DNA from: Methylophilus sp. 42
GTDB lineage: Bacteria > Pseudomonadota > Gammaproteobacteria > Burkholderiales > Methylophilaceae
Reading direction: 5' to 3'
Assembly (NCBI RefSeq): GCF_000384155.1
Contig: NZ_KB913031.1
Coordinates: forward strand, 744,001-808,000
Length of the DNA: 64,000 bases
Made by a program: the position numbers and the translations under genes. Positions 11,660 to 19,824 of the stretch are shown here, piece after piece; positions within the stretch are counted from its first letter, which is position 1; every line of letters starts with the position of its first letter. The notes under the pieces were generated by a model. That model worked only from the letters and a program-made list of their open reading frames with translations, had not been told where the DNA came from and did no database searches.

Positions 11660-12250
11660 ATGCGCTTTTTTAAAACCTTAGTGCTTGCGATGACCATGCT
11701 GGTGTCAGTGTCCTCACAAGCGGCAGTTGAAAGTTATGGCACCTTGTTGTCTGGCAGTTACCAGCCGGCGACTGATTTTGCATCGCTTTCAGTCAGCGGC
11801 ACAGGCAATGTGTACACTTTTACCTTAACCGCCTACGACCTGAATGCCTTGTTTACCAATAAAGCCTTTATTGGCTCAATTGCCGTCAAGGTATCGCCAG
11901 ATGTGAAGGCAAACACAATTGCTGTGAGTGGTATTTCCGGCGGCGTGACCAACCTGGCAGCCAGCAATGGCGGCGGTCCTGGTGGCGATTGGGATTTCAG
12001 GTTTGTGCTTGGTCAAGGCGCTAACGACAGACTGTTGGCAAACGAGTCAGTCACCTGGACGGCAACATTTGCGTCTAATGTGAGCATTGATGACTATGCA
12101 CTGCACGTGCAAGGATTGACCAAGGCGCAAGGTGACAGTGCCTGGTATCTGAATTCAGTCGTTACTACGCCTGTGCCTGAGCCTGCTTCATGGGCATTGT
12201 TGCTGGTAGGGTTGGGCGTTGCCAGCAGCATGCGTAAGCGTCGTGCGTAA
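11660..12250 (+). CDS. PEP-CTERM sorting-domain exported protein
   Basis: The 196 aa product has a signal peptide (MRFFKTLVLAMTMLVSVSSQ, cleaved after QAA), a beta-rich extracellular domain rich in Gly, Ser, Thr and Asn (residues 24-165), and a PEP-CTERM anchor: VPEPASW, hydrophobic helix, then RKRRA. Exosortase would remove the tail and fix the protein to the envelope or exopolysaccharide. A ribosome binding site (AAAAGGA) lies 8 bases before ATG 11660. It is a single-gene unit with its own promoter and a terminator at 12279. It shares no clear similarity with the other two PEP-CTERM proteins outside the sorting tail. Confidence 0.85.
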   Translation: MRFFKTLVLAMTMLVSVSSQAAVESYGTLLSGSYQPATDFASLSVSGTGNVYTFTLTAYDLNALFTNKAFIGSIAVKVSPDVKANTIAVSGISGGVTNLAASNGGGPGGDWDFRFVLGQGANDRLLANESVTWTATFASNVSIDDYALHVQGLTKAQGDSAWYLNSVVTTPVPEPASWALLLVGLGVASSMRKRRA

Positions 12251-17357: not shown

Positions 17358-17558
17358 TTCACTTCGGTTGTTTATATCCCGGCTGTTTATTCCCCAATTT
17401 CTACGCGTTTCATCTTGACCGCACACGGTGGGCCGCGGCATTGCTGACGATGGTGTTTTTTCGCATACGCATCACAATATTTTTATGTTAATAAAATATA
17501 AATATTGTTAAAATAACTCACGAATACATCTTAATAAATCAAAGTGAGGAGTTACACA

Positions 17559-18809
17559 ATGTATAGCAAGGGAGTCGTTTTATCCGGAATGAAGAAAATC
17601 AGCCTGGCCGTGATGCTGGCTGGTTTGTCCGCGAATCTGCACGCGATTGAGTTGTTGAGCGGGTTTGGCGGCGATGCCGGTTTTGGTGAGCTGGCCATGT
17701 TAGCCAATGATGATGATTCAAGCAACGCCTTAAATTTGCCGTTTGGTATTAATTTCTTTGGCCAGGAATTCAATCGTTTTTTTATTAACAATAACGGCAA
17801 TATCAGCTTTTTGAGCGATTTGTCTACATTTACACCAGAAGCTTTCCCGGTGGCGACGCAGCCCATGATCGCCCCTTACTGGGCAGATGTAGATACGCGT
17901 GTTGGGCAAACACCGACTGCTTTCGGCAGTAATAGTGTGTATGTGGCCTCGCCCAGCGCAGAGACCGTGGTGGTGACTTGGCATAACGTCGGTTACTATC
18001 CAGCGCAAAACAATAAACAGAATAACTTTCAATTAGTGCTGCAAAAAACACCAGGCACTTCTAATGGTAGTTTCAGTGCCGAGTTTCGCTATGACCGACT
18101 GGAGTGGACGACAGGCGACGCCAGTGGCGGCGTCAATGGTTTGGGCGGCACACCTGCGCAAGCTGGCTATGATGCCGGTGATAATATCAATTACGAAACC
18201 CTGCCTGGCTCTCGTTCTAACGAGGTGCTGAACCTGGTCAATTTGAGTAATGTTTCTACGGCGACGCCTGGTTTATGGCGATTCTCGTTTAATAACGGCG
18301 CCTTGCCAGGACAAACGGCCGAAAATGCTTTTTTACCGGTGGTGGTCGATGGCGCGTATCAATTCGAGTTTAATGTGCAATTGAATCAACGTGTGTTTAT
18401 TGACCCGCTGGTGGCTGTTGGCTATGACTACGAAGTCACAGGCGGTAATCAGTTTACCTCTGTATTGTTACCGCTTCTGGCAGCTGACACAGATGGTTAC
18501 GCAATTTATGCTTTAGGTAATCTGACACCAGGTGGCCTGTTAGGCACCGTAACTGGTGGCACCGTGTTTAATTTTGCGACGCCACTGACAGGTTTCACGG
18601 TGGCTGGTATTGATGCTGCGGCCATGCTGGATCCGGCGAATACGACCGCATTTGTTACCGGGCTGACTTTTTTGAATGCAGGTGTGGTGCAGATGTCGCA
18701 AACACCAATTACCACATTGGTGGCACAAGTGCCTGAGCCATCCTCCTATGCCATGCTGTTATGTGGTCTGGCGGGATTGATTGTTGTGCGCAGAAAAACG
18801 CGCGCCTAA
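17559..18809 (+). CDS. NIDO-like PEP-CTERM exported protein
   Basis: The start is ATG 17559, with the ribosome binding site GAGGAG 8 bases before it (the longer frame from GTG 17544 would begin inside that site). The 416 aa product has a signal peptide ending near LHA, then a domain resembling the extracellular NIDO domain (nidogen-like): LPFGINFFGQEFNRFFINNN, PYWADVDTR, and later WRFSFNNG. Such domains are found in adhesion proteins. A second beta-rich part and a PEP-CTERM tail follow (VPEPSSYAM, hydrophobic helix, RRKTRA). Terminator at 18829. Probably exosortase-sorted to the cell surface or matrix. Confidence 0.85.
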   Translation: MYSKGVVLSGMKKISLAVMLAGLSANLHAIELLSGFGGDAGFGELAMLANDDDSSNALNLPFGINFFGQEFNRFFINNNGNISFLSDLSTFTPEAFPVATQPMIAPYWADVDTRVGQTPTAFGSNSVYVASPSAETVVVTWHNVGYYPAQNNKQNNFQLVLQKTPGTSNGSFSAEFRYDRLEWTTGDASGGVNGLGGTPAQAGYDAGDNINYETLPGSRSNEVLNLVNLSNVSTATPGLWRFSFNNGALPGQTAENAFLPVVVDGAYQFEFNVQLNQRVFIDPLVAVGYDYEVTGGNQFTSVLLPLLAADTDGYAIYALGNLTPGGLLGTVTGGTVFNFATPLTGFTVAGIDAAAMLDPANTTAFVTGLTFLNAGVVQMSQTPITTLVAQVPEPSSYAMLLCGLAGLIVVRRKTRA

Positions 18810-18946: not shown

Positions 18947-18977
18947 TTGACACTGTAAATGATAATTATTATCATTT
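18947..18977 (+). promoter_or_regulatory. Sigma-70 promoter with an overlapping Fur box
   Basis: Perfect -35 TTGACA (18947-18952), 17-base spacer, -10 TATCAT (18970-18975). Over it lies a 21-bp perfect palindrome, AAATGATAAT-T-ATTATCATTT (18957-18977), matching the Fur consensus (GATAATGATAATCATTATC). Iron-loaded Fur bound here would block RNA polymerase, so the operon should be on under iron limitation. Confidence 0.88.
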
Positions 18978-19002
18978 GAAAACAGTTTAGCCAAGGAGAG
19001 TC

Positions 19003-19215
19003 ATGATGAAACGTCATACGGTGGTTGGAAAAACCATGCTGGCTGGAAAAACCGCCTGCAAAGTGCTTTATCACCAGTCTTCAGACACGGTGGAGCTGGA
19101 AGTCGGCGGGACCACACTCAAGTTTGAGGCCGACAGCTTTATCGTGATTAACGAAATGCTACGCAAGGCGGCGGCCCGTATTGTGATGCAGACTGAAATA
19201 GAGATGAGTGTTTGA
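19003..19215 (+). CDS. Small protein of unknown function, first gene of the Fur-box operon (70 aa)
   Basis: Two ATGs in tandem follow AAGGAGAG, a near-perfect ribosome binding site. The 70 aa cytoplasmic protein has no signal peptide or membrane segment. Its fold seems to be two or three short beta strands (KVLYHQSSDTVELEVGGTTL) followed by an amphipathic helix. It is a clear paralogue of the third gene of the operon: both have a Lys/Leu/Gly start, a tyrosine-containing strand, an ELE(V/I)G strand, and a final helix. One Cys (residue 19). Control by Fur suggests a role in iron starvation. I know no named family. Confidence 0.75.
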   Translation: MMKRHTVVGKTMLAGKTACKVLYHQSSDTVELEVGGTTLKFEADSFIVINEMLRKAAARIVMQTEIEMSV

Positions 19216-19228
19216 AAGAGAGATTGCC

Positions 19229-19498
19229 ATGAATACAATGAATATCCACGCGATGCGTTATGACCCCAGCTTGCCCGATGCTGAATCGGTGATGGCGTCA
19301 TTGCTCTATATTGCGACCTTGTATATCAAGAAACCAACCTATGATCTGGCCAAGCAGGCCTTGCGCCTGGCCGAAACACTGACTGCGCCCGAGTATGCGG
19401 ATTCAGACCTGATTTGCAGTGTGTCGCGTCGCATGTGTGTGCAGTGGACCCTGCTGGTCAATGAGCATGAGCAGGCTGAAACGCCACTGGCAATATAA
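19229..19498 (+). CDS. Small helical protein of unknown function, second gene of the Fur-box operon (89 aa)
   Basis: ATG 19229 is preceded by AAAGAGAG. Starting 13 bases after the stop of the first gene, the 89 aa product appears all-helical (YDPSLPDAESVMASLLYIAT, then AKQALRLAETLTAP) with three Cys, two of them near the C-terminus in SDLICSVSRRMC. It has no signal peptide. No family is recognised. Its placement between two paralogous genes in a Fur-controlled unit suggests that the three proteins act together, perhaps as a complex. Confidence 0.7.
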   Translation: MNTMNIHAMRYDPSLPDAESVMASLLYIATLYIKKPTYDLAKQALRLAETLTAPEYADSDLICSVSRRMCVQWTLLVNEHEQAETPLAI

Positions 19499-19523
19499 AA
19501 ACAACCGTGTTTAGGGCTTGAAT

Positions 19524-19766
19524 ATGAGTGAGGAAAGTATGTGTAAGAAAATTCTGTTGTCCGGCCAGGCTGGTTTTCGTGTGCATTATTGTGAAACACA
19601 TCGCACGATAGAGCTTGAGATCGGCGCCATGAGCTTGCGGCTGGATGAAGACGCGCTGGAAGTGATGAGTGATGCTTTGGATGAGTCTGTGAGCAAGTTG
19701 CAGGCCTTGCATGCGACCAAAGGCTCTTTTCAGGCATTTATGCGGCAATTGAATATGCCGGATTAA
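19524..19766 (+). CDS. Paralogue of the first Fur-box operon gene (80 aa)
   Basis: ATG 19524 (alternatively ATG 19539, which has AGGAAAG five bases before it). It aligns with the first gene: KKILLSGQAGFRVHYCE against KTMLAGKTACKVLYHQS, then TIELEIGAMSLRLDEDALEV against TVELEVGGTTLKFEADSFIV. The C-terminal helix is longer by about 20 residues. Two Cys are in the N-terminal half. A terminator (19792) closes the unit 25 bases downstream. Function unknown; a metal- or iron-starvation role is inferred from the promoter only. Confidence 0.75.
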   Translation: MSEESMCKKILLSGQAGFRVHYCETHRTIELEIGAMSLRLDEDALEVMSDALDESVSKLQALHATKGSFQAFMRQLNMPD

Positions 19767-19791
19767 GGCGCTGGCCTAAAGCGTAAACTAC

Positions 19792-19824
19792 ACAGGCTGT
19801 GATGCTCGCATCACCGCCTGTTTT
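19792..19824. terminator. Hairpin terminator between the Fur operon and ppk2
   Basis: ACAGGC-T-GTGATG, loop CTCG, CATCAC-C-GCCTGT, then TTTT. It can serve the rightward operon; ppk2 converges from the right and ends at 19830. Confidence 0.8.

Follow-up and report, generated by a model that had tools for sequence, protein, structure and literature searches.

The closest described counterparts of the operon analyzed here are the iron uptake operons of the TonB-ExbB-ExbD/TonB-receptor type, the small HemP/HmuP regulators of heme-uptake receptors (PF10636) and those ribosomal proteins, L31, L36 and S14, that occur as Cys-containing and Cys-free pairs under zinc control. One HemP/HmuP member is reported to bind heme and to act post-transcriptionally (PMC9131926), and S4 of Thermus is stated to bind a [4Fe-4S] cluster (PMC11791143). 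The Methylophilus operon described below resembles HemP in the small size of its products, in being preceded by a Fur box and in that its three gene families share a parent operon with hemP; this parent operon is of the TonB type, although the three-gene operon itself contains no transport gene. The likeness to the zinc-controlled pairs also lies in the parent operon, which encodes a Cys-free S4 in a genome whose main S4 has four Cys. In contrast with those pairs, its box is of the Fur type, the candidate cofactor is an Fe-S cluster, and no S4 gene lies within the three-gene operon. Among the titles returned by our literature search, none linked hemP, S4 or Methylophilus with Fur control.

The operon lies in a stretch of 64,000 nucleotides (hereafter, the window) corresponding to positions 744001-808000 of the 2.97-Mb single-contig genome of a Methylophilus sp. 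Positions 18947-19821 of the forward strand hold a complete transcription unit, composed of a promoter, a Fur box, a Shine-Dalgarno sequence, three ORFs (hereafter, the trio) and a hairpin. The first-pass annotation had described a promoter with a Fur palindrome over its -10 element, three small ORFs and a terminator, and all of these elements were recovered in our analysis (Table 1), with the proviso that the T tail of the hairpin is short, with just 4 T after the stem. The start codons admit alternatives, as the mechanical ORF list places a GTG further upstream for ORF2, yielding a 96 aa product, and ORF3 has a second candidate ATG at 19539. Upstream, the trio neighbors a gene that we take to encode a PEP-CTERM-like protein, and downstream it faces a convergent gene that is presumably polyphosphate-kinase-2-like; the products of two genes in the window (17544-18809 and 11660-12250) carry what we take to be a terminal PEP-CTERM-like segment. 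An Rfam scan returned six matches, all of them below the gathering score and five located upstream of the promoter. By analogy with BrrF, a 3'-end sRNA (PMC7377471), we considered that the trio operon might hold an sRNA of this kind.

Table 1. Features of the trio operon, numbered from the first nucleotide of the window.
Feature	Positions	Strand	Description
Sigma-70 promoter	18947-18975	+	TTGACA-17-TATCAT; 11/12 positions match
Fur palindrome	18957-18977	+	AAATGATAATTATTATCATTT; 21 bp, perfect; covers the -10 element
Fur core (7-1-7)	18960-18974	+	TGATAATTATTATCA; 0 mismatches
Shine-Dalgarno	18993-18998	+	AAGGAG; from the sequence and the aligned trio upstream regions
ORF1	19003-19215	+	70 aa; single Cys (C19); pI 7.9, basic; paralogue of ORF3
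ORF2	19229-19498	+	89 aa; two Cys; pI 4.9, acidic; predicted three-helix bundle
ORF3	19524-19766	+	80 aa; C7, C23, H26; pI 5.0, acidic; predicted beta4-alpha fold; Cys-rich family
Rho-independent terminator hairpin	19792-19821	+	-18.2 kcal/mol, z -5.2

The Fur core of the trio is the only perfect match to the Fur pattern in the window, which contains 7 sites with up to 3 mismatches, compared to a mean of 2.2 in shuffled sequence. Genome-wide, we identified 4 perfect sites and, allowing up to 2 mismatches, 47 sites versus 4 for the reversed control pattern. When 15 of these genomic sites were inspected by eye, several were seen to lie near ECF sigma-, anti-sigma-, TonB-dependent receptor- or bacterioferritin-like genes, and others had no evident iron gene nearby. 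The genome also encodes a Fur protein (PF01475, E 1.1e-46), as well as a second, weaker member of the family. Across the 16 Methylophilus loci harboring the trio, the Fur core presents no mismatches in 13 and a single mismatch in 3. An alignment of 15 upstream regions (14 Methylophilus trio loci, without L008 and L011, and the L086 locus of another genus) reveals TTGAC in all 15, the window's included, together with a perfect or near-perfect palindrome, followed in most of them by a Shine-Dalgarno-like stretch, while the flanks drift. The control by Fur put forward in the first-pass annotation is, as far as sequence goes, well supported by this preserved footprint between drifting flanks and by the presence of a Fur gene. 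From the box, we infer that in the cell iron-loaded Fur would shut the trio off and that iron starvation would turn it on.

Conservation of the trio together with its Fur box, proposed as a check in the first-pass annotation, was observed in 16 of the 22 sampled Methylophilus genomes, as well as in the single locus (L086) detected outside the genus. Methylophilus methylotrophus also carries the trio (L117). ORF2 matches were obtained in 18 of the 22 genomes. The trio was not found in the remaining six, four of which (G011, G015, G018 and G019, with completeness of 80-94%) lack any ORF2 match, whereas G001 and G012 present only the other operon type described below; since it was not found in these six genomes, the trio is dispensable. 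A decayed trio is seen in a genome of another genus (L090, 12169-12763), where ORF2 is split across two frames, ORF3 is open and ORF1 was not found.

In 13 comparisons per ORF spanning 14 of the 16 trio loci (L008 and L011 were left out), dN/dS values range from 0 to 0.12 for all three ORFs wherever synonymous sites are unsaturated, the exceptions being ORF2 against L016 (0.17) and L017 (0.33). Furthermore, the ORF3 protein of three relatives is identical to that of the window, although 8 to 21 synonymous changes have accumulated in the gene. These substitution patterns indicate that all three ORFs are under purifying selection. In trees inferred from 37 and 27 chosen rows, which include some long branches and the first of which had bootstrap values that had not settled, the trio ORF2s define one clade (97/100), as do the ORF1s (100/100), and the trio ORF3s group together (92/82).

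The Methylophilus sp. genome contains a second copy of ORF2 (43% identical) in another operon (L082), preceded by a Fur box with two mismatches. The gene order in this operon is ORF2, rpsD2 (encoding an S4 paralogue), hemP, and the genes for TonB, ExbB, ExbD and PepSY_TM, with hemP and the last four identified by Pfam. In two further loci (L085 and L090), a Fur box precedes the succession ORF1-ORF2-rpsD2-hemP-ORF3-hemP, which continues with genes read as tonB-exbB-exbD; Pfam was used to check operon neighbors in L082, L090 (receptor), L150, L153 and L154, and all other neighbors were named by eye. In this operon the three families appear in the order seen in the trio, and the trio therefore corresponds to the three small genes of the operon minus the rest. 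As judged from sequence, the trio arose by duplication and detachment of a module from the Fur-boxed ORF1-ORF2-rpsD2-hemP-ORF3-hemP-tonB-exbB-exbD operon. The first-pass view of a self-contained unit holds with regard to the unity of the trio, which is retained as a set across Methylophilus and in L086, but must be modified in that this unit derives from a larger operon preceded by a Fur box. The stand-alone Methylophilus trio provides a minimal genetic unit in which these proteins can be studied, free of the accompanying transport and ribosomal genes.

Counting the genome under study, relatives of ORF1 and ORF3 were detected in 61 of 120 genomes and 15 of 24 genera in the family sample, in 12 of 369 genomes in the class sample and in 7 of 397 genomes in the phylum sample; the class-level matches include one with an internal stop (G335) and one split over two frames (G234). 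Among the 13 loci outside the family, an ORF2 relative lies directly upstream of ORF3 in 7, and a Fur box with up to 2 mismatches occurs within the fetched stretch in 8 and was not detected at this threshold in 5. The neighboring genes differ among these loci, with hemP in L033 and L047, Porin_O_P, FMN_bind and ApbE in L153, and DUF3501 in L150. ORF1/3 and ORF2 define two small-protein families that reach no curated family, although they are found alongside Fur boxes and iron genes across several families of proteobacteria.

The paralogy between the first and third proteins noted at the outset was confirmed by direct comparison (25% identity, single-comparison E 2e-10) and by the match between independent profiles of the ORF1 and ORF3 families (E 8e-10, probability 96.5). 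Profiles of near and distant ORF2 relatives also match each other (E 2.2e-8). In a set of 16 chosen ORF3 relatives, which leaves out the window ORF3, the other trio ORF3s, the ORF1s and loci L024, L083 and L087, every row shares three Cys, 11 rows have a fourth, and the last residue is His in 11. One four-Cys relative is that of Methylobacillus flagellatus L1B (L102). A broader set of 21 rows, the window copy among them, retains as its sole invariant Cys the first of the CxxC motif, the second being almost invariant. In the window ORF3, two of the four Cys are replaced, one by Phe and the other by His, while ORF1 retains one Cys and has lost the CxxC motif. ORF1 is a basic protein in all 7 members analyzed (pI 7.9 or more), and this charge, together with the acidic window ORF2 and ORF3, would suit a mixed complex.

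Structural predictions with AlphaFold2 yielded a fold of four strands and a long helix for ORF3 (mean pLDDT 84.9, pTM 0.59; 20-sequence alignment) and three helices for ORF2 (mean pLDDT 82.9, pTM 0.71; 14-sequence alignment). Foldseek comparisons of these models against PDB and BFVD returned nothing at E <=0.001, with weak leads only to the PC4/whirly-like 2it9 (TM 0.59, E 0.73) and 4bhm (TM 0.45) and to MIT- or S20-like folds, and profile searches against PDB returned nothing at this threshold either. The relatives of ORF2 and ORF3 (alignments A1, A6 and A11) often terminate in VH, RH or LQ, and ORF2 may resemble FagA of Pseudomonas.

None of the three window proteins obtained a reliable match in Pfam, NCBIfam, PADLOC or PHROGs. 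The best scores were at chance level, encompassing LRR_NXF1-5 for ORF2 (E 0.0064, 16.5 versus 30.5 bits) and, for ORF1, UreE (E 0.028) and two functionally uncharacterized PHROGs (E 0.043 and 0.055). The earlier statement that these proteins match no known family stands at threshold level, but it overlooks that the ORF1/3 family repeatedly matches DUF6686 (PF20391), an uncharacterised domain, below threshold. Matches at E <=1 were obtained for 9 of 21 ORF3-family members (best 0.0011) and in a second, partly overlapping set for 4 of 10, spanning, where positions are given, the Cys and strand region of the ORF3 family. The scores shown for ORF3 relatives fall below the curated cut-off (best 17.6 versus 23.9 bits), and none of the three window proteins matches the domain. 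A search of the Methylophilus sp. genome for DUF6686 produced no match, but the controls likewise matched nothing, and our literature search found no mention of this domain. HemP did not match any of the three window proteins either, and a descent of ORF3 from HemP was rejected, as hhalign assigned a probability of 0.4 to the comparison of the two profiles.

We propose, with a probability of roughly 40%, that the trio encodes a Fur-repressed small-protein complex of iron starvation, in which the ORF3 family would play a HemP-like role together with ORF1 and ORF2. In this mechanism, the tricistronic operon would be induced by iron starvation to produce a set of small, probably cytoplasmic proteins. 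ORF3, with its predicted beta4-alpha fold, would be the original functional subunit, the three to four Cys of its relatives serving to bind a metal, an Fe-S cluster or heme; ORF1 would be its basic sister without the CxxC motif, and ORF2 its acidic helical partner. The resulting complex would read residual iron or heme and tune how the iron-uptake machinery is expressed or assembled, a mode of action proposed for the ORF3 family by analogy with HemP. The cofactor is less sure in the window ORF3, because Phe and His replace two of the four Cys. Further points against the proposal are that ORF3 shows no sequence relation to HemP, that the structural comparisons gave no significant match, that 5 of the 13 loci outside the family lack a Fur box with up to 2 mismatches and that six of the 22 Methylophilus genomes did not yield the trio. 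In turn, the varied neighbors of the ORF2-ORF3 pair make a general cytoplasmic role likelier than one as part of a transporter.

The same conserved Cys would also suit a direct role in iron or Fe-S handling, with ORF3 acting as a metallochaperone or cluster carrier under iron scarcity. ORF2 would then be the adaptor, and the Cys-poor ORF1 would serve as scaffold or antagonist. In some loci the family is linked to FMN_bind, ApbE and PepSY_TM genes, and some ORF3 relatives present weak matches to the zinc-ribbon-like LysW (2 of 16 members in NCBIfam, best E 0.023; E 0.51 in PDB), but these matches are within chance. Moreover, a carrier would be expected to retain its ligands, which have been lost in the window ORF3 and in ORF1, and we hence consider this explanation possible but unlikely.

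A second alternative derives from the S4 genes of the parent operon. In the Methylophilus sp. genome, outside the window, the main S4 (L125) has four Cys in a metal/Fe-S-type pattern, and the rpsD2 product (L082, 4843-5460) is Cys-free. We examined S4 genes in 25 chosen genomes, including 22 chosen family genomes; 1 of 30 loci (L177) gave no Cys reading, and in L180 and L184 the single Cys precedes the start Met. Among the family genomes, 19 encode a four-Cys S4, 12 of them together with a Cys-free S4, and 3 (G022, G031 and G428) encode the Cys-free S4 alone. The ORF2-rpsD2 unit of the 12 genomes with both types is preceded by a Fur box, which has at most 2 mismatches in 10 cases and 3 mismatches in 2. 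Of the three genomes with the Cys-free type alone, two have a 3-mismatch Fur box at a distance of 53-55 bases upstream of rpsD2, and in the third no box was detected. This distribution fits an iron-sparing ribosomal swap, with control loosened where the Cys-free S4 stands alone, in what is a correlation drawn from small numbers; the argument is weakened because 3-mismatch boxes do precede rpsD2 in two of the three Cys-free-only genomes. The parent operon makes testable whether iron is saved by replacing a ribosomal protein that possibly bears an Fe-S cluster.

The trio might in this context accompany ribosome remodelling at low iron, as ORF2 directly precedes rpsD2 in all 14 loci L018-L031, and lies before it in all 12 genomes that encode both S4 types versus none of the 3 with the Cys-free S4 alone. 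The S20-like and PC4/whirly-like Foldseek matches point in the same direction, but they fall short of significance, both ORF2 and ORF3 are acidic, and no S4 paralogue was detected beside the window trio or the distant ORF2-ORF3 pairs, which renders this role in translation improbable. Returning to the HemP-like reading, a more specific version would see the trio as an undescribed iron-starvation complex of a Cys-ligated beta4-alpha sensor (ORF3), a Cys-poor basic ORF1 and a three-helix ORF2, operating beside HemP and with a Fur-controlled swap to an Fe-S-free S4; we regard it as rather unlikely.

In three loci (L094, L095 and L097), the gene immediately following ORF3 was named tonB by eye, a placement that could reflect an accessory function in TonB-ExbB-ExbD uptake, through the stability or assembly of TonB or its receptors. 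The Methylophilus trio is, however, detached from tonB, and distant ORF2-ORF3 pairs lie near other gene types; with Porin_O_P, FMN_bind and ApbE genes beside it in L153, the pair is not bound to a single transporter, and such a function is likewise improbable. A selfish cassette of small genes, of the toxin-antitoxin or another type, with a chance Fur box, suggested by the several small adjacent genes and by one weak match of ORF3 to TacA1 (E 0.19), is very improbable in view of the purifying selection, the 0 PADLOC matches of the trio to toxin-antitoxin or defence components and the recurrent linkage to iron-uptake genes.

ORF3 genes also occur on their own. In L088, L089 and L091, stand-alone ORF3 genes are each preceded by their own Fur box (0-1 mismatch), and in the first two the neighboring gene is presumably glutamate-1-semialdehyde-aminotransferase-like. 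In L153, L154 and L155, ORF3 adjoins porin-, FMN_bind-, ApbE- or PepSY-like genes, named partly by eye, which could constitute an iron reduction or uptake set; ORF2 accompanies ORF3 in L153 and, weakly, in L155.
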